Below are positions 1 through 31,696 of a DNA stretch of 31,696 nt, piece by piece. Source of the DNA: a virus. The first letter of the stretch is position 1, and each line of letters starts with the position of its first letter. The position numbers and the translations under genes were made by a program. The stretch is taken from positions 1 to 31,696 of IMG/VR virus record IMGVR_UViG_3300005613_000268, one strand, 5' to 3'. The notes below the pieces were generated by a model. The model had not been told where the DNA came from. It worked only from the letters and a program-made list of their open reading frames with translations, and ran no database searches.

Positions 1-275
1 AGTTGGTTGAGTTGTATCAACTTGAGGTCGCGGATCGCGACTCGGCAAGAAAACGCGAGGTTGAGATTGCCAAGACTGGGCGCTTTGATTTTATGTTTAA
101 TTTAACCGGTATCATAGGACTTGCCGCGTTTGGTTTTATATTATATGCCATTGTGTATTTGAGCATCCCGGAAAACAACAAGGAGGTATGGATTCATACC
201 ATTGGCATTATTGAGGGCATTGTGCTTTCGATATTTGGATATTTTTATGGCAGCGCAGTAAAACAAAATAAGTAA
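1..275 (+). CDS. Holin-like membrane protein, C-terminal part cut by the contig start
   Basis: This is the second half of the gene seen whole at 31089-31535, and its codons are read from base 3. It encodes the end of a charged helical stretch and two membrane segments, then a short lysine-rich tail. The four differences from the right-hand copy (5, 116, 128, 251) are all silent. It is not a separate 90-residue gene: the TTG at base 3 is an internal leucine codon. See the full-length entry for function. Confidence 0.85.
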   Translation, partial: LVELYQLEVADRDSARKREVEIAKTGRFDFMFNLTGIIGLAAFGFILYAIVYLSIPENNKEVWIHTIGIIEGIVLSIFGYFYGSAVKQNK

Positions 276-412
276 TGGCAAAAAAGCAATCACAATTTGT
301 AAAAGAGGAAACGCCCAAGGTAAAGCGTAAAGGAGTACACGCCAAAACAAAATCCTCAAAGGTTAAAACGAGCAAAAAATATAAGAAGCCATACCGCGGT
401 CAAGGGCGGTGA
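275..412 (+). CDS. Small very basic protein, 45 residues
   Basis: The ATG overlaps the stop of the holin-like gene (TAATG), suggesting translational coupling. The product is rich in lysine and arginine throughout and ends in a PYRGQGR tail; it has no cysteines and no hydrophobic segment. In the other copy of the terminal repeat (31535-31672) the two differences are a silent threonine change and a stop-to-stop change (TGA versus TAA), which supports real coding. A nucleic-acid-binding or membrane-surface role would suit the charge, but I do not recognise the family. Confidence 0.75.
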   Translation: MAKKQSQFVKEETPKVKRKGVHAKTKSSKVKTSKKYKKPYRGQGR

Positions 413-430
413 GGTCAAATTTTAAATTGT

Positions 431-438
431 TATTTTTG
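431..438 (+). promoter_or_regulatory. Bacteroidota-type -7 element TATTTTTG
   Basis: TATTTTTG matches the TAnnTTTG -7 element used by the Bacteroidota primary sigma factor. It lies 17 bases before the ATG at 456, in the gap after the basic protein. No clear -33 TTG sits at the usual distance, so the assignment is moderate. It would drive the fibre region. Confidence 0.5.
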
Positions 439-13208: not shown

Positions 13209-13501
13209 CCGCAAAAGATAGAAAACAACGGCCGGTATATTCCGGGGTGCTAAAATATTTTCCTGATGCAATTATGGAGGTGGCATTTGTCAGTTATATT
13301 GGCAATCAGCAACATCATCCGGATAAAGAGTTGCATTGGGATCGCAACAAATCAACCGATGAGCTAGATGCGTTAATGCGCCATTTAATATGCGCCGGCA
13401 CAAAAGATAAAGATGGGGTTCGACATTCCGCAAAAGTGGCGTGGAGGGCATTGGCTAACTTACAAAAGGAAATCGAAAATGACACCAGAGCAGAAAATTA
13501 G
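13205..13501 (+). CDS. DUF5664-type nucleotide pyrophosphohydrolase-like protein, 98 residues
   Basis: The pattern KYFPDAIMEVAFVSYIGNQQ, then HWDRNKSTDELDALMRHLIC and HSAKVAWRALANLQKEIE is that of the DUF5664 family, which Pfam-type resources relate to dATP/dGTP diphosphohydrolases. The acidic residues in DELDALMRH and the all-helical form suit a MazG-like dNTP pyrophosphatase. It could adjust nucleotide pools for phage replication. No PurZ-like gene for 2-aminoadenine DNA was seen. It is coupled to the RecE-like gene by an ATGA overlap. Confidence 0.65.
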   Translation: MTAKDRKQRPVYSGVLKYFPDAIMEVAFVSYIGNQQHHPDKELHWDRNKSTDELDALMRHLICAGTKDKDGVRHSAKVAWRALANLQKEIENDTRAEN

Positions 13502-13895
13502 ACAATTAGTTGAGCAAATATATAAATTGGATTTAACCAATAATTGCCGCGAGTCAAGATTTGTGCAAGCGCGATTGATTTATTACAAGTTATGCATTCA
13601 ATTTGGCACATTAAACCAAAGCAATATTGCCAAGAGCATTGGGCGCAATCACGCCACATTGATCCACGCATTAAAGCAATGGGATGTTTATATCAGATTT
13701 TTTGAAGGATTTGAGAAAAATTACAACTTTGCAAGGGCGGCATTATTGGAGGCAAAAATGTTTCCCAATGTCAAAAAGCGCATCACATTGGATGAGTTAT
13801 TGATAAAATACAATGCGCTTATGGTTGAGAATGAGCAATTAAAAATTAAATTAGGGCAATCAAAAAAATGTAAGTGTGGTAAATGCGTTTCATAA
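13479..13895 (+). CDS. DnaA domain IV-like DNA-binding protein, 138 residues
   Basis: Residues 35-70 (YYKLCIQFGTLNQ, then IAKSIGRNHATLIHALKQW) closely follow the DnaA C-terminal domain, in which the loop and helix of the (G)RxHxTxxHA motif read DnaA boxes. There is no AAA+ domain. A helical tail follows and the protein ends in a Cys cluster (CKCGKC, residues 131-136) that could bind a metal. It is encoded among recombination and replication genes, just before the iteron-bearing initiator, so a role in origin recognition or in diverting host initiation is plausible. I chose the ATG at 13479 over an earlier in-frame start inside the DUF5664 gene. Confidence 0.7.
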   Translation: MTPEQKIRQLVEQIYKLDLTNNCRESRFVQARLIYYKLCIQFGTLNQSNIAKSIGRNHATLIHALKQWDVYIRFFEGFEKNYNFARAALLEAKMFPNVKKRITLDELLIKYNALMVENEQLKIKLGQSKKCKCGKCVS

Positions 13896-14494: not shown

Positions 14495-15520
14495 ATGAAG
14501 ATTAACAAGATTATCCGACCGGCTCACACCGAGCAATGGTCAATGATTCCGACCGCAATATTTAAAAATAAGGATGTTTCAATGGCCGCCGTTGGGATGT
14601 ATTGTTGGCTATATTCCAGACCGCCATTGGAAGAAATAACTAAAGATGCCGTTTTAACGCATTTTAAGATAGGTTTAAGCGCGTTTTATAGCAGAGTGAG
14701 GGAATTAATCAACTCGGGATTTTTAATGCGGGAAAACGCACGAAATGAAGGCAAGTTTGCCGGGACTAATTATTTATTGTTAAATGAGCCGTTTGTTGAT
14801 TTACCGCATACGGATAATCCGCATACGGATAATTTAGATCAAGGGATATATAATAATATATATAATAATAATAATATAACCTTAGATAATATAAACTTAG
14901 ATAAGAATATAATCTTAGATAATATAAACTTAGATAATAATATAAACTTAGATAAGGATATAAATAAGGATAATATAAACTTAGATACTAATATAAACTT
15001 AGATAATAAGATATATACTGATAATAAAATAAACAAAAAAACTTATATCCCTCGAAATCAAAAAAATGCATTTTCAGATGGCACAATTAAAGCATTTGAG
15101 CATTTTGTGGATTTGTTTCCGGATAAGTACAAACCAAAATCCGAGGCACAAAAAAACAAGTGGATGGATTGCCTTGACAAAGTCCAGCGGATTGATGGTT
15201 ATGATTTGCGTGATGTTTATTTGATGGTTAAAAAAATGCGCCAAGATGATTTTTGGCAAGGTAATTTTTTGAGCATTTTAAAACTGCGCAACACAGATAA
15301 AAACGGAATCAAATACATTGACCGATTTATGGATCAACAAGATAATTATTTGCAAACGGCAAAAAATAAAATACAAGGCGTATATCGATTTTATAAATAC
15401 ACAACGCCAAATGGTGATATTCAGATTGGCGCAAAAACAAAAGATGGTGATATGGATCACAACATATTGGCGCAGAAATTAACGCAAAAGGAAATCGAGA
15501 AAATAATCAGCACACTATGA
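14495..15520 (+). CDS. Winged-helix replication initiator with internal iterons, 341 residues
   Basis: The N-terminal domain (about 10-100) has the winged-helix pattern of phage replication proteins: AAVGMYCWLYSRPP, LTHFKIGLSAFYSRVRELIN, SGFLMRENARNEGKFAGTNY. Residues about 104-182 are low complexity (PHTDN twice, then NINLD-type repeats), encoded by an iteron array in the DNA. The C-terminal domain (about 185-341) contains HFVDLFPDKYKPKSEAQKNK and FWQGNFLSILKLRNTDKNGI, as in replisome-organiser proteins. This layout, a DNA-binding domain, an iteron-encoded linker and a C-terminal partner domain, parallels lambda O. The protein probably binds its own iterons and recruits the primase-helicase at 15975. 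It overlaps the next gene by ATGA. Confidence 0.75.
   Translation: MKINKIIRPAHTEQWSMIPTAIFKNKDVSMAAVGMYCWLYSRPPLEEITKDAVLTHFKIGLSAFYSRVRELINSGFLMRENARNEGKFAGTNYLLLNEPFVDLPHTDNPHTDNLDQGIYNNIYNNNNITLDNINLDKNIILDNINLDNNINLDKDINKDNINLDTNINLDNKIYTDNKINKKTYIPRNQKNAFSDGTIKAFEHFVDLFPDKYKPKSEAQKNKWMDCLDKVQRIDGYDLRDVYLMVKKMRQDDFWQGNFLSILKLRNTDKNGIKYIDRFMDQQDNYLQTAKNKIQGVYRFYKYTTPNGDIQIGAKTKDGDMDHNILAQKLTQKEIEKIISTL
14804..14833 (+). repeat. Tandem repeat CCGCATACGGATAAT x2
   Basis: Two perfect adjacent copies of a 15-bp unit, encoding PHTDN twice, immediately upstream of the AT-rich iteron array and with the same unit length. Confidence 0.85.
14873..15040 (+). repeat. Iteron array, unit AATATAAACTTAGAT; probable replication origin
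   Basis: Five exact copies of the 15-bp unit start at 14888, 14921, 14939, 14972 and 14990. One-mismatch copies start at 14873 and 14906, and degenerate copies at 14957, 15008 and 15026. Some copies are adjacent and others are separated by exactly one codon, so spacing is 15 or 18 bp and the reading frame is kept (NINLD). The array is almost wholly A+T apart from the CTTAG core. Iterons inside an initiator gene are the classical lambdoid origin arrangement. Confidence 0.7.
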
Positions 15521-15933
15521 CAAGGGATGATATTTACGAATTAGAAAAGCAACTCATTTTTTTGCTCAATCTTGATGGTTGGCAAATCAAATGGTCAGAG
15601 GATAAATATTGCCATTACGATGCAATTGGCACAGACATAAACGGCAAGGAGTGCATTTTAGAGTTTAAGTTTCGCCGGGCATATTACAAGACCAAAATAA
15701 TGGAATGCAAGAAGTGGAACAATTTAACGCAGTATAAAACCGATGAGATTTATTATTGCGTGATTGACCAAAAAGGATGTTTTGTTTATGACATTGGCGA
15801 TATTGATCACCAGAGCGTGATTGAATTGCCATTGCCAAAGGAAACAATTACCGAAAAAATAGTTAAGGAGAAACGATTTGTATATGAGTTAAAAAAGCCG
15901 CCAAAATATTTTTATGAATACAATTTTTTTTAA
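15517..15933 (+). CDS. Putative PD-(D/E)XK nuclease-like protein, 138 residues
   Basis: The N-terminal half shows the fold signature: YDAIGTDINGKECILEFKFR, with D35 in a strand and E49-x-K51 in the next, which could be the metal-binding site. A basic helix follows (RRAYYKTKIMECKKWNNL). The C-terminal half has a beta strand (DEIYYCVIDQKGCFVYDIGD) and a charged tail. It sits between the initiator and primase-helicase genes, overlapping the former by ATGA. It could be a replication-linked or recombination nuclease. The assignment is from the motif only. Confidence 0.5.
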   Translation: MTRDDIYELEKQLIFLLNLDGWQIKWSEDKYCHYDAIGTDINGKECILEFKFRRAYYKTKIMECKKWNNLTQYKTDEIYYCVIDQKGCFVYDIGDIDHQSVIELPLPKETITEKIVKEKRFVYELKKPPKYFYEYNFF

Positions 15934-15974: not shown

Positions 15975-17654
15975 ATGTACAGACAAGAATTAGAGCAGCT
16001 CGGCATAATAGTCAAGGGCAATGCCGGGATGACCAAAACAAAATGCCCGAAGTGTTCGCACGAGCGCAAAAAGAAATCCGACCCTTGCCTATCGGTAAAC
16101 TTAGACAAAGGATTATATAATTGCCATAATTGTGGATGGGCCGGGAGCGTAAAATTTAAAGCCAAAGCCGAGTACACCATACCTGAAAAAGAAAATGCCA
16201 ACGTATCGGAGCGCGTATTGAAATACTTTGAATCACGAGGCATAAGCGAGCCAACATTGGTGCATTGGAAAGTGGGCGAATCATTGGAATATATGCCGCA
16301 AGTGCAAAAGAATCGCCGCGTAATTAATTTCAATTACTACCGCGAGAATAAATTGGTCAATGTGAAATACCGAGATTCAGAAAAGAATTTCAAGATGGTC
16401 AGCGGCGCGGAGTTAATTTTTTACGGCCTTGACAATATCAAAGAATTGGACAAGGTGTACGTTGTTGAGGGCGAGATGGATGCATTGTCATTGCACGAGG
16501 CCGGCGTTTATTCGGTTTGTAGTGTACCCAATGGCGCATCCAAAGGCAATCAAAAATTAGAGTATTTAGATAATTGCTGGCAATATTTTAAAGACAAGAA
16601 GGAAATAATTATTTGCACCGACAACGATGATGCTGGGTTAATGTTGCGCAATGAATTGGCGCGTAGGTTTGGGCGTTATAAATGCAAATACGTTGATTTT
16701 GGGCAGTATAAGGATGCCAATGAGGCATTGATGGCCGAAGGCACAAAGGCATTGCGTCAGTTTGTTAATGATGCCAAATCATTCCCATTGGAGGGGGTTT
16801 TGAACATTGATAATATTTGGCAAAACGTACTTAATTACAACGAGAAGGGTGTTGTGAATTATAGCATTGGATTGGGTGAATCGGATAGTTATTTTAAGAT
16901 GGCATTTGGTGAGTGGTCGGTGGTAACCGGGATACCCAATAGCGGAAAATCCGACATTGTGGATCAGATTTGCGTTAATATGGCAACAAAATATGGGTTT
17001 AGAAGCGCGATGTTTTCCCCGGAGTCATTCCCTTACGAGGGCCATATAAAACGCATTGCCAATAAGTTAAACGAGCGCAATTGCAACAATGACGATTTAA
17101 ACAATACAAAGGATTTTATTAGCGAGCATTTCCATTGGGTCAAGATTGATTTGGAAAACTTAACGCTCAAGGGTATATTAACGGCATTTCGCGAGTTAGT
17201 ATTTCAAAGGGGGATTAATATATGCGTGATTGATCCTTGGAATATGCTGGATCATTCAGCGCAAAAGGATTACGCGTACATTGGGCGGTTATTATCCGAG
17301 ATTACGCAGTTTTGCCAGCAAACCAATGTGCATTTATTATTGGTGGCGCATCCAAGAAAAATTGAGTCAATTGATGGGACATATAAAAAACCCACGTTGT
17401 ATGATATAAGCGGATCGGCGGACTTTTTTAATAAAACATATAATGGCATAATTTGTTACAGATGCATTGGGCAAAAGTCAAGTTATAAGTCCGACATCGT
17501 TAAGATTTATATCGAAAAGGTCAAGCGAAAAGAAAACGGCCAATTGGGTGATTTTGAAGTAGCGCCGGATTTTTACAATGGCGGAGTGTATAAACCCATT
17601 GACCAGAACAACAAACGATTCGAGGTAATAAAGGATAATAATATACCATTTTAA
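15975..17654 (+). CDS. T7 gp4-type primase-helicase, 559 residues
   Basis: A bifunctional replication enzyme with three recognisable domains. The zinc-binding primase domain has CPKC (C24, C27) and CHNC (C50, C53). The TOPRIM domain has VVEGEMDAL (E165) and CTDNDDAG (216-221). The DnaB/RecA-like helicase has Walker A GIPNSGKS (319-326), Walker B ICVIDPWN (416-423) and the LLLVAHPRK motif (454-462). The length fits the family. It would unwind the fork and make primers; no phage polymerase was seen, so it presumably works with the host replicase. It begins after an early-type -7 element and a leader also found upstream of 10796. Confidence 0.92.
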   Translation: MYRQELEQLGIIVKGNAGMTKTKCPKCSHERKKKSDPCLSVNLDKGLYNCHNCGWAGSVKFKAKAEYTIPEKENANVSERVLKYFESRGISEPTLVHWKVGESLEYMPQVQKNRRVINFNYYRENKLVNVKYRDSEKNFKMVSGAELIFYGLDNIKELDKVYVVEGEMDALSLHEAGVYSVCSVPNGASKGNQKLEYLDNCWQYFKDKKEIIICTDNDDAGLMLRNELARRFGRYKCKYVDFGQYKDANEALMAEGTKALRQFVNDAKSFPLEGVLNIDNIWQNVLNYNEKGVVNYSIGLGESDSYFKMAFGEWSVVTGIPNSGKSDIVDQICVNMATKYGFRSAMFSPESFPYEGHIKRIANKLNERNCNNDDLNNTKDFISEHFHWVKIDLENLTLKGILTAFRELVFQRGINICVIDPWNMLDHSAQKDYAYIGRLLSEITQFCQQTNVHLLLVAHPRKIESIDGTYKKPTLYDISGSADFFNKTYNGIICYRCIGQKSSYKSDIVKIYIEKVKRKENGQLGDFEVAPDFYNGGVYKPIDQNNKRFEVIKDNNIPF

Positions 17655-17668
17655 AAAAAAACAAAGTA

Positions 17669-18391
17669 ATGCAAGTAAATAAAATATACATTGAAGATTG
17701 TTTAAAGACGATGGCAAAAATGCCAAATGATTTTGTTGATTATTCCTTGACATCTCCACCATATAATGTAGGTAATAATTCATTAAATGGTGAAGGAAAA
17801 AAGTATAATTCAATAGATGATAAAATGAGCGATCACGATTATTTACAAAACCAAATAAATGTTATAAATGAACTTTTACGAGTTACAAAAAATCATATTT
17901 TTTATAATATCCAACTTTTGTCAGCGAACAAAAGATCAGTTTTAAAATTATTAGGCCACTTTAATAACCAAATTAAAGACGTTTTTATTTGGAATAAAAA
18001 ATATGGTGTTCCTCAAATGGAGGCTGGTGTTTTCAATTCGGCTTATGAATTTATAATCATTTTAAGTAATCAAAAACCGGAAAAAAGAAAGTTTTATGAT
18101 TGTGATTTTCAAGGAACACAAAATAATGTGTTCCAATTAAAAAATAAACATTCTAATCCATTTGCAAAGCAACATAAGGCAATAATGCCCTTAGATTTAC
18201 CAAGGCATTTTATGCAAATTTTTGGATTTGAAAATGATATTTGGTATGATCCATATATGGGAACTGGCACAACAGGAGTTGCTGCAATTTTAGAAAAAAA
18301 ACAATACATTGGAAGTGAAATATTTAAGGAGTATGGTGATATTTCAGAAAAAAGAATATCGCAACACAAAGCACAAACAAGATTATTTTAA
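17669..18391 (+). CDS. Beta-class DNA N6-adenine or N4-cytosine methyltransferase, 240 residues
   Basis: The catalytic TSPPY motif is at 28-32 and the AdoMet-binding DPYMGTGTTG at 194-203. The order, catalytic motif first, is that of the beta class (N6_N4_Mtase). The TSPPY form occurs in both m4C and m6A enzymes, so the modified base cannot be named. No restriction enzyme gene is next to it; a solitary phage methyltransferase most likely protects against host restriction. The gene is noticeably richer in A+T than its neighbours and prefers AGA and TTA codons, suggesting recent acquisition. It begins 14 bases after the primase-helicase stop. Confidence 0.85.
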   Translation: MQVNKIYIEDCLKTMAKMPNDFVDYSLTSPPYNVGNNSLNGEGKKYNSIDDKMSDHDYLQNQINVINELLRVTKNHIFYNIQLLSANKRSVLKLLGHFNNQIKDVFIWNKKYGVPQMEAGVFNSAYEFIIILSNQKPEKRKFYDCDFQGTQNNVFQLKNKHSNPFAKQHKAIMPLDLPRHFMQIFGFENDIWYDPYMGTGTTGVAAILEKKQYIGSEIFKEYGDISEKRISQHKAQTRLF

Positions 18392-18814: not shown

Positions 18815-18911
18815 CAGAAACAGACAAAAACAAGATTCGTATCGCATTACTTTTTATGCGATGATTGCAATGATTGGTTTATTTTTAATCGAAATAATCC
18901 GATCGGTATGA
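18807..18911 (+). CDS. 34-residue single-span membrane protein
   Basis: A basic N-terminus (MNNRNRQKQ) is followed by one membrane helix (ITFYAMIAMIGLFLIEII, residues 14-31). The start overlaps the previous frame, and the stop overlaps the next ATG by ATGA, so it is likely translated in the same chain. Function unknown. Confidence 0.5.
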   Translation: MNNRNRQKQDSYRITFYAMIAMIGLFLIEIIRSV

Positions 18912-20035
18912 AGAAATTAGTAAACATTGCCAAGGTAAAAGAAAACCCAAGCAATCCGAGATTTATAAAGGATAGCAAATTTAAGAAGTTGGTTCAATCA
19001 ATCAAGGCATTCCCTGAGATGCTTGAGAAGCGCCCAATTGTTGTGGATGAGGATATGATTGTGTTGGGTGGCAATATGCGTTTAAAGGCGTGCAAATCGG
19101 CTGGATTGTTTGAGGTGTGGGTTGATATTGCAGAGGGATGGACTAAAGAACAAAAGAATGAATTTATCATAAAAGATAATGTTGGATTTGGTGAGTGGGA
19201 TTGGGACATATTAGCTAATGAGTGGGATGTGGAGGCGTTAGATGATTGGGGTTTGGATTTGCCGCCAATGTTTGATGATCCGGAGCCAGAGGCCGCAGAG
19301 GATGATTACGAGGAGCCAGACCAAATGCAAGTGGATGTTGTGCTTGGCGATTTAATAGAGATTGGCGAGCATCGTTTGCTTTGTGGGGATAGTACAGACT
19401 CAGACCAAGTGGCAAAGTTGATGAATGGGGAGAAAGCGGATATGGTATTTACAGACCCACCTTATGGAATAGGCTATGAATACAACTCACACAAAGACGC
19501 AAAAGGAGAGGAGTATCTTAAATTCTGCGAGGAGTGGTTTAATAACTTAAAATTGTATTCTGAATTTATATTTATATCGACAGGTTGGTCTTATCAAAAA
19601 TTCTGGTGGAATAAAGATCCTAAAGATTGTTTTTATTGGATAAGTAGAAATAAAAGAAGCGGCGGGAGTATTTCTCATTTTAGAAAAATAGAGCCTTTAT
19701 TTATTTGGGGTAAACCTAAAAATAAATATGATTTTGATTTTTTTGAGGAAAATACAAAACAAATAGAAGGTTTAAGAGATTTACACACTTGCCCAAAACC
19801 TATCGATTTAATTTCAAACATAATAAAAGGCGTAAATAAAAAAGATCTCATTTTAGATATATTTTGCGGATCAGGAACAACTATGATTTGCGCCCAGCAG
19901 CTCGATCGCAAATGCTACGGAATGGAACTTGACCCAAAGTATTGCCAAGTTATAATCGACAGAATGCATAAACTTGACCCATCTCTTAAAATAAAAATCA
20001 ATGGACAAGAATATACTCCAAATGTCAATGACTGA
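18908..20035 (+). CDS. ParB-domain / DNA methyltransferase fusion, 375 residues
   Basis: Residues 1-115 form a ParB/Srx-type domain (NPSNPR at 13-18, GGNMRLKA at 54-61). A strongly acidic linker follows at about 122-140. The methyltransferase part has the catalytic DPPYG motif (183-187) and the AdoMet motif DIFCGSGTT (317-325), again beta-class order. Such fusions are common in phages as orphan methyltransferases. Codon use changes within the gene: the ParB half uses GAG and CCA like the core genes, while about 19470-19870 uses AGA, CCT and TCT. That middle part covers the likely target-recognition region, so it may have been exchanged. Part of the genome's DNA-modification pair with the gene at 17669. 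Confidence 0.85.
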   Translation: MKKLVNIAKVKENPSNPRFIKDSKFKKLVQSIKAFPEMLEKRPIVVDEDMIVLGGNMRLKACKSAGLFEVWVDIAEGWTKEQKNEFIIKDNVGFGEWDWDILANEWDVEALDDWGLDLPPMFDDPEPEAAEDDYEEPDQMQVDVVLGDLIEIGEHRLLCGDSTDSDQVAKLMNGEKADMVFTDPPYGIGYEYNSHKDAKGEEYLKFCEEWFNNLKLYSEFIFISTGWSYQKFWWNKDPKDCFYWISRNKRSGGSISHFRKIEPLFIWGKPKNKYDFDFFEENTKQIEGLRDLHTCPKPIDLISNIIKGVNKKDLILDIFCGSGTTMICAQQLDRKCYGMELDPKYCQVIIDRMHKLDPSLKIKINGQEYTPNVND

Positions 20036-31099: not shown

Positions 31100-31535
31100 G
31101 AAAAAATTTTCAGAAACCGCCGTTGGCAAGTTTATATTAAACAAAGTGCCGGATTTTGTGGGCGATGTATTGCCGGATAAAGGCGTTTTGGGTATTGTGA
31201 AAAATTTAATCGATTCGGATCCCGATATGAGTGCCGAGCAAAAGGCGCAATATCATCGCGAGTTAGTTGAGTTGTATCAACTTGAGGTCGCGGATCGCGA
31301 CTCGGCAAGAAAACGCGAGGTTGAGATTGCCAAGACTGGGCGCTTTGATTTTATGTTTAATTTAACCGGTATCATTGGACTTGCCGCATTTGGTTTTATA
31401 TTATATGCCATTGTGTATTTGAGCATCCCGGAAAACAACAAGGAGGTATGGATTCATACCATTGGCATTATTGAGGGCATTGTGCTTTCGATATTTGGAT
31501 ATTTTTATGGTAGCGCAGTAAAACAAAATAAGTAA
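31089..31535 (+). CDS. Holin-like membrane protein, 148 residues
   Basis: A basic, helical N-terminal part (about 1-85, with ELYQLEVADRDSARKREVEI) is followed by two membrane spans (about 89-112 and 121-143) and a Lys-rich end. The arrangement resembles the 3TM/GTA-type holin families, in which a charged DSARxRE-like helix precedes the membrane part. It directly follows the endolysin gene. I chose the ATG at 31089; an in-frame start 27 bases upstream lies deeper inside the endolysin gene. The C-terminal half is repeated at the left end of the contig. Confidence 0.7.
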   Translation: MPTKKKFSETAVGKFILNKVPDFVGDVLPDKGVLGIVKNLIDSDPDMSAEQKAQYHRELVELYQLEVADRDSARKREVEIAKTGRFDFMFNLTGIIGLAAFGFILYAIVYLSIPENNKEVWIHTIGIIEGIVLSIFGYFYGSAVKQNK

Positions 31536-31696
31536 TGGCAAAAAAGCAATCACAATTTGTAAAAGAGGAAACGCCCAAGGTAAAGCGTAAAGGAGTACAC
31601 GCCAAAACAAAATCCTCAAAGGTTAAAACAAGCAAAAAATATAAGAAGCCATACCGCGGTCAAGGGCGGTAAGGTCAAATTTTAAATTGTTATTTT
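31261..31696. repeat. Right copy of the terminal direct repeat
   Basis: This is the second copy of bases 1-436, differing at six positions. It stops inside the -7 element seen at 431-438, so the contig end is an assembly cut and not a biological boundary. The unit genome is bases 1-31260. Confidence 0.9.
31535..31672 (+). CDS. Small very basic protein, second copy of 275-412
   Basis: The same 45-residue protein as at 275-412, in the right copy of the terminal repeat, ending in TAA instead of TGA. It is the same gene on the circular genome, not a duplication. Confidence 0.75.
   Translation: MAKKQSQFVKEETPKVKRKGVHAKTKSSKVKTSKKYKKPYRGQGR

Follow-up and report, generated by a model that had tools for sequence, protein, structure and literature searches.

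A probable replication origin inside the initiator gene of a marine phage, and the exchange of its iterons together with a winged-helix domain

Origins of replication that are embedded in the gene for the initiator protein are already known from phage lambda, phage SPP1, plasmid pSK41 and, as an annotation, phage 80alpha. In lambda, the position of the origin within the initiator gene is established, and two iterons together with the AT-rich region form the minimal unit that is competent for unwinding (PMC7466680). The SPP1 gene 38 / oriL system has direct repeats and an AT-rich unwinding element, the oriL repeats being inside the initiator gene (PMC6316719). In pSK41, the ori is central within rep, and the central segment of the protein is dispensable; in the Rep of pPR9, about 500 bp comprising the N-domain and the origin have been exchanged for a pfam13730 (HTH_36) version, with >97% of the C-domain kept (PMC5703833). 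In RK2 oriV, the 13-mers of the unwinding element to which TrfA binds lie in the AT-rich region, are needed, and are bound as single strand (PMC4081077). In 80alpha, which has a Rep of the phiETA type, a putative replication origin is annotated inside the gene (NC_009526, 9674-9899) and reads CCAACGTTGGAAAAA-CCGTTAACGGTAAAA-CCAACAATGGAAAAA-CCGTTAATGGTAAA, followed by three 15-bp AT-rich repeats. A literature search found no paper describing the origin of the phage group to which the present phage belongs.

The DNA considered here is a stretch of 31,696 nucleotides from a marine phage (an IMG/VR virus record), the whole of which is called the window. The middle of its initiator gene is very probably the replication origin, at which a winged helix would bind CCG-type iterons, the adjoining AT-rich DNA would melt, and the C-terminal domain of the initiator would load the phage primase-helicase. 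An origin inside this gene had been proposed in an earlier note, and is strongly supported by comparison with 150 related loci from IMG/VR and genome contigs, grouped in 27 protein clusters. The two ends of the window (1-436 and 31261-31696) repeat each other at 98.6%, so that, despite the linear class of the IMG/VR record, the genome is probably near complete, at about 31.26 kb, and circular or terminally redundant. The GC skew is monotonic across the window and gives no marker of an origin; it is uninformative because nearly all genes are on the + strand. One phage-like relative (L149) lies on a contig of a metagenome-assembled genome (MAG) labelled Candidatus Woesearchaeota, which is probably mis-binned, and another (L150) lies on a Flavobacteriaceae MAG contig, a hint at the host group.

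The initiator gene (14495..15520, + strand) is an open reading frame of 341 amino acids, the product of which matches, as a whole protein, the PHROG families of DnaD-like helicase loaders or replication initiators. There are three parts: a winged helix (residues 1-101), a disordered linker (residues 102-190), and a helicase-loader-like C-terminal domain (residues 191-341). In an AlphaFold prediction from an alignment of 32 relatives, residues 1-101 and 191-341 are confident and pLDDT is <50 for exactly residues 102-190, i.e., for the segment coded by the repeats, which is predicted to be disordered. This pattern of order and disorder bears out the earlier placement of the repeats between a winged-helix domain and a C-terminal domain, and all of the repeat copies are, as had been said, in frame within the gene.

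The N-terminal domain (14495..14797, + strand) is predicted to be a DNA-binding winged helix, and forms one when folded alone (AlphaFold, pTM 0.76). Its best match among PDB structures in Foldseek is primosomal DnaB of Geobacillus (E 5e-4), with weaker matches to domain 1 of RctB and to the N-domain of DnaD. The window's own N-domain falls below the Pfam HTH_36 model, which aligned homologues reach (L064, 4e-8; L111, 1e-7); judged by these homologues and by the predicted replication-type fold, it is a winged helix of the HTH_36 type. The C-terminal domain (15065..15517, + strand) matches phrog_2514, a family of DnaD-like helicase loaders, and is found in relatives that have another N-domain and other iterons. 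When O-like families were tested, its matches to phrog_277 and phrog_391 were weak (E about 1e-3). A sequence search of solved structures with the initiator gave nothing useful, and a search of NCBIfam gave no family for the protein.

The DNA that codes for the linker consists of three blocks, in the order (a) two 15-bp CCG-N4-CGG units, (b) an AT-rich block, and (c) an array of AATATAAACTTAGAT units. The units of block (a) are near-palindromic and follow directly after the part of the gene coding for the N-domain. Candidate iteron 1 (14804..14818, + strand) is CCGCATACGGATAAT, i.e., CCG-N4-CGG with an A/T tail, and is picked out by its near-palindromic form and by the density of such units in relatives; candidate iteron 2 (14819..14833, + strand) is a second CCGCATACGGATAAT, the unit being of the type present in the annotated 80alpha origin. 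These are the two perfect copies of another 15-bp unit that had been seen upstream of the array, and they lie in tandem (14804-14833). In the relatives, the strict form of the unit (CCG-N3/4-CGG) is present at 13.1 per kb in the linkers versus 0.12 per kb elsewhere in the same loci. Block (a) is kept as DNA down to 31% protein identity, the peptide it codes for changing from PHTDN to PRTEK, to TVAEK and to GPVN.

There are two classes of N-domain (A and B), both of them Pfam HTH_36, on one family of C-domains, and each has its own unit. Linkers of class A have the CCG unit in 62 of 80 non-redundant genes and the class B unit in none, whereas linkers of class B have a CCTATTGAAGAAAAG-type unit in 22 of 23 genes and the CCG unit in none. 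In a tree of 60 C-domains, six changes of class are needed, five of which are forced by supported branches. In the pair L029 (class A) and L116 (class B), identity is 95.7% across 3.3 kb of upstream DNA and 93.0% across 3.7 kb downstream; the two are unrelated only across the N-domain and the iterons, the similarity resuming in the AT-rich DNA. Such near-identical phages, differing only in winged helix and iterons, amount to a natural domain-swap experiment, and paired natural variants of this kind make the recognition code between initiator and iteron testable. As the two are exchanged together, the type of iteron follows the DNA-binding domain, as it must for a pair of origin and initiator. 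The earlier note had suggested asking, by comparison of related phages, if a change of DNA-binding domain brings a change of DNA unit; the answer is yes for the CCG units and no for the NINLD-coding array of block (c). Cellulophaga phage phi18:3 (L152) has only the C-domain in common with these phages and has another N-domain and an 11-bp AAAGGGCAAGC repeat. Four repeats of this type lie inside its DnaD-like gene (L152, 2850-2904); they make a further pairing of N-domain and iteron and are probably the origin of phi18:3. L095, L094 and seven other class B genes have, near codons 10-15, a palindrome that resembles the core of the class A iteron (in L116, ACCGGCGCCGGT); it is in the coding sequence of the N-domain and outside the linker.

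The CCG-type unit occurs in all three reading frames among the relatives, and single genes that read the DNA unit in at least two frames number 24 of 59 in class A (a few of these cases resting on a degenerate unit) and 21 of 23 in class B. For example, CCGCGACGG in L057 is read inside K-N-R-D-G-K in one frame and K-T-A-T-V-K in another, and the class B unit CCTATTGAAGAAAAG is read once within P-L-L-K-K-S and twice as P-I-E-E-K. Identical units read in several frames show directly that conservation acts on the DNA rather than on the peptide; units in different frames thereby separate selection on DNA from selection on peptide without a bench experiment. In the window, all copies of both unit types are in a single frame, and thus the argument from frames reaches block (a) by homology and does not reach block (c). 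The window, with two CCG units, is at the low end. In the 18 class A genes in which the strict unit is missing, degenerate units can be read in most, and none in L005. The iterons, i.e., the repeats bound by the initiator, are most likely the CCG units of block (a) rather than the NINLD-coding repeats.

Block (b), ATATATAATAATATATATAATAATAAT (14846..14872, + strand), is the core of a predicted DNA unwinding element, to judge by duplex stability and codon bias. Whether stability is taken over 50, 100 or 150 bp, the weakest stretch of the whole window contains this block. Nowhere in the genome is the duplex weaker than within blocks (b) and (c): over the 31.7 kb, the minimum for 100 bp is at 14846-14945, with -0.906 versus a mean of -1.307 (sd 0.079), or about 5 sd from the mean. 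In the low-complexity blocks of the cluster representatives, codon usage is biased towards A and T, with ATA at 77% for Ile, AAT at 92% for Asn and TAT at 96% for Tyr, versus 41, 65 and 63% elsewhere in those genes (p = 8e-9, 2e-12 and 1e-6). Of 47 loci, only 12 have their stability minimum in the linker, which is unremarkable in some relatives; a minimum at this place was rejected as a general rule across the relatives. As relatives with short AT blocks are not exceptional in this respect, the case for the unwinding step is better in the window than in the family as a whole.

Block (c) (14873..15004, + strand), delimited by a repeat scan and a period test, is AT-rich, codes for NINLD, and comprises seven 15-bp AATATAAACTTAGAT units and a degenerate one. 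Five copies are exact (14888, 14921, 14939, 14972, 14990) and two have one mismatch (14873, 14906), as had been reported. The reported steps of 15 or 18 bp are correct for the successive steps of 15, 18, 15 and 18 bp and for the last one, of 18 bp, but not for one step of 33 bp, in which the degenerate copy, GATATAAATAAGGAT, lies at 14957. Allowing up to three mismatches, AATATAAACTTAGAT has nine matches in the window, versus a shuffle mean of 2.97 (0 of 100 shuffles reach nine), and the periods of 33 and 18 in the block were reached by 0 of 2000 codon-order shuffles. The block is specific to lineages. NINLD is found in the window, in L001 and in L002/L003; its counterparts are NIQD or NVQD at 12 bp in L006-L011, TNKS in L005 and a ATATGTAATGATAAT-like unit in L020, and L004 and L013 have no array. 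A search for further relatives of the window's clade found the NINLD unit in tandem in only three contigs, of two lineages. The earlier note had taken the NINLD peptide to be a tolerated by-product of a DNA element, and this is supported: relatives that keep the peptide while its codons vary freely were not seen, the peptide being lost in relatives and the codons, where kept, barely varying.

As AT-rich repeats that change freely and do not follow the recognition helix, the units of block (c) are placed in the unwinding element and not among the main binding sites. However, copy number and unit turn over quickly among close relatives, as would also be expected of neutral slippage in a tolerant AT-rich linker beside the real origin, with AT content as the only function of the array, and the copies, all in one frame at steps that are multiples of three, are what intragenic slippage leaves. 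Against this, periodic AT-rich arrays recur in independent replicons, and in RK2 the repeats of the unwinding element are required and are recognised in single-stranded form (PMC4081077). In the NIQD-type arrays, moreover, the Ile or Val codon before Gln is RTA in 22 of 22 cases versus 52 of 212 elsewhere (p = 9e-13), Ile and Val interchanging while RTA stays, although this count is inflated by recent duplication. Between the window and L001, the linker has four nonsynonymous and no synonymous differences and the rest of the gene two and ten (p = 0.008), and one of the differences makes the first AATATAAACTTAGAT unit perfect in L001; this test, like that of the RTA codons, is weakened by recent duplication and small numbers. 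Between the window and L003, 18 of 19 codons of the NINLD array are identical, versus 99 of 121 in the C-domain, which is no significant difference (p = 0.20). Neutral slippage is thus unlikely but deserves to be taken seriously, and a place for block (c) in the unwinding element is clearly favoured over it; possibly, by analogy with RK2, the block is a docking array for the single strand. Apart from block (c), neutral slippage is compatible with an origin in the middle of the gene.

Another reading of the same array, as expressed in the earlier note, is that the AATATAAACTTAGAT repeats themselves are the iterons, bound as duplex by the winged helix, with the CCG units secondary. These copies are the most numerous and the most exact, AT-rich arrays like them stand beside CCG units in unrelated replicons, and the two AATATAAACTTAGAT copies common to the window and L003 are base-identical. 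Yet the array is absent in L004 and L013, is replaced by other units in L005, L010 and L020, and does not follow the N-domain as the CCG units do. In L020, the recognition helix is nearly that of the window (HFKIGLTAFYSRVREL versus HFKIGLSAFYSRVREL) and the CCG units are kept while the NINLD array is absent, which argues against the array as the duplex target of the winged helix. This role for the NINLD repeats is therefore unsupported, and improbable.

The gene for the primase-helicase, presumed to be the partner loaded at the origin, lies downstream (15975..17654, + strand; phrog_239, E 8e-92), as it does in almost all relatives checked; between it and the initiator gene is an open reading frame (15517-15933) with no family match. 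This setting bears on whether the CCG units could instead be an autoregulatory operator, or an incompatibility or partition site, of the winged-helix protein, without an origin. A winged helix with palindromic sites would fit a repressor as well, but the sites are deep inside the gene and beside the weakest DNA of the genome, that gene is an initiator followed by a primase-helicase, sites of the CCG type lie in the annotated 80alpha origin, and the ori of pSK41 is likewise central within rep (PMC5703833), so that such a role is very improbable. Least credible of all is selection of the repeats as a repetitive, flexible peptide linker, their DNA identity reflecting only recent duplication: the copies in the window are all in frame and low-complexity linkers are common, but the linker is predicted to be disordered and takes nonsynonymous changes freely, and the relatives' units read in several frames within one gene contradict it for the CCG-type and class B units.

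Upstream of the initiator gene is a DnaA domain IV-like gene (13413..13895, + strand; Bac_DnaA_C, E 1e-6; identified also by synteny and comparison of its helix-turn-helix, HTH), which is conserved in most relatives, where it precedes the genes for a VRR-NUC nuclease and the initiator. Its true start is probably at 13479, since the homologous frames in L003 and L004 are interrupted by stops ahead of residue 23. The earlier note counted this neighbour in favour of the origin; no role for it has emerged. There are seven TTWTNCACA sequences in the window, versus 5.6 expected by chance, none in the initiator gene and without a cluster, and an origin of the DnaA/oriC type was rejected, perfect DnaA boxes being at chance level. 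The DnaA-like protein was also rejected as the binder of the NINLD repeats, its HTH (NHATLIH) being nearly constant while block (c) changes completely. Elsewhere in the window, a DNA methyltransferase gene with a ParB-like N-terminal part (18908-20035) is preceded by an open reading frame (17669-18391) that reads like another methyltransferase.

In relatives, but not in the window, the initiator ATG is closely preceded by a conserved leader, about 75 nt long (e.g., L029:3913-3998, L131:2185-2275, L012:3489-3579, and further examples). An alignment of 20 distinct rows gives two interleaved helices in the order a-b-a'-b', i.e., that of a pseudoknot, with 99.3% of cells paired (28-54% in slid controls) and four pairs changed on both sides; a run of U comes after helix b, which is a terminator-like feature. 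The leader matches no Rfam family, and a scan of IMG/VR with its exact pattern found 24 contigs, most of them already known from the initiator search. Possibly, it is a new structured RNA controlling the initiator gene. Part of the leader, CAATACCCTATTGATGAAG (L029:3949-3970, and likewise in L063 and L012), resembles the class B iteron CAATACCCCTATTGAAGAAAAG; most genes with a leader of this type carry a class A N-domain, and the resemblance may be chance, a remnant or a second site.

Taken as an origin, the middle of the gene would work as follows. The N-terminal winged helix, probably as a dimer, would bind the two near-palindromic 15-bp iterons at 14804-14833. The AT-rich DNA that adjoins them, made up of the ATATATAATAAT block and the NINLD-coding repeats (14846 to about 15005), would be strained by this binding and would melt; the NINLD-coding repeats may, in addition, be bound in single-stranded form. 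Recruitment or loading of the phage primase-helicase (15975-17654) by the C-terminal domain would come next. The peptide coded by the origin would be a disordered, tolerated linker.

The homologous N-domain is found, with different C-terminal parts, well beyond these relatives. CCR-N4-YGG units lie in the same place in six of the six N-domain-matched database phages examined, including 80alpha, and in three plasmids; the hosts of the six phages are Staphylococcus, Arthrobacter, Enterococcus, Bacteroides, Parageobacillus and Vibrio, and PT1-4, with an annotated gene of only 228 bases, was left out of the count. A CCG-type unit follows a homologous N-domain in phages or plasmids from four bacterial phyla. 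Beside the units, AT-rich arrays with a 15-bp period are present in 80alpha, Parageobacillus, Exiguobacterium and Brevibacillus (p <=0.01, codon-order shuffles), whereas the array of L010 has a period of 12 bp and that of the window has periods of 18 and 33 bp; these examples were picked by eye, and other members are without such an array. Perhaps, then, the HTH_36 winged helix and the 15-bp CCR-N4-YGG-AAAA iteron form a portable "address" cassette that, in phages and plasmids of several phyla, has moved as one block from one C-terminal domain to another, unrelated one, the adjacent 12-, 15- or 18-bp AT-rich arrays being sequence-specific docking repeats for the single strand in the unwinding element, a proposal to which slightly under an even chance is given. 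If it is true, the origins of many uncultured phages could be located from one gene; the units provide a simple sequence signature for locating origins in such phages.

Of the known systems, 80alpha is closest: its N-domain is homologous (30% identity in tblastn, with phrog_22134 in common), and 15-bp CCR-N4-YGG-AAAA units directly after the N-domain are followed by 15-bp AT-rich repeats, all within the gene. Its C-terminal domain (Phg_2220_C) is unrelated, however, its units number four as against the window's two, and the gene downstream codes for a DnaC-like loader where the window has a primase-helicase. With the RepA_N replicons, as described in PMC5703833 and PMC7145576, there are in common a central origin, semi-palindromic direct repeats and an A tract, and pSK41 has its Rep boxes central in rep and a DnaD-like N-domain. 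However, no match of the window's N-domain to the RepA_N model (PF06970) was reported at E up to 10, at which the HMMER filters drop most very weak matches, and the relatives gave none either, related phages giving HTH_36. By sequence, the system of the window therefore belongs with the HTH_36 (80alpha-type) initiators and not with RepA_N.

In lambda O and ori-lambda, the iterons are similarly in the middle of the gene, between the DNA-binding and partner-binding halves, with the AT-rich region on the C-terminal side, and the four annotated iterons are read in three frames; the iteron sequence is another one, the N-domains have no clear sequence similarity, and no P-like loader was recognised in the window. 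SPP1, by description, likewise combines an AT-rich element with direct repeats, those of oriL lying within the initiator gene, but has a separate helicase-loader gene (gp39). RK2 resembles the window in having repeats within its AT-rich region, which makes it a possible model for the NINLD array; its initiator is of another family, and its origin is not within the initiator gene. The chimeric Rep of pPR9 is a swap of the same kind as that between L029 and L116. Thus, the principle of the embedded origin is already known, and what is new is the breadth of the pairing between N-domain and iteron, and natural swaps as clean as these.
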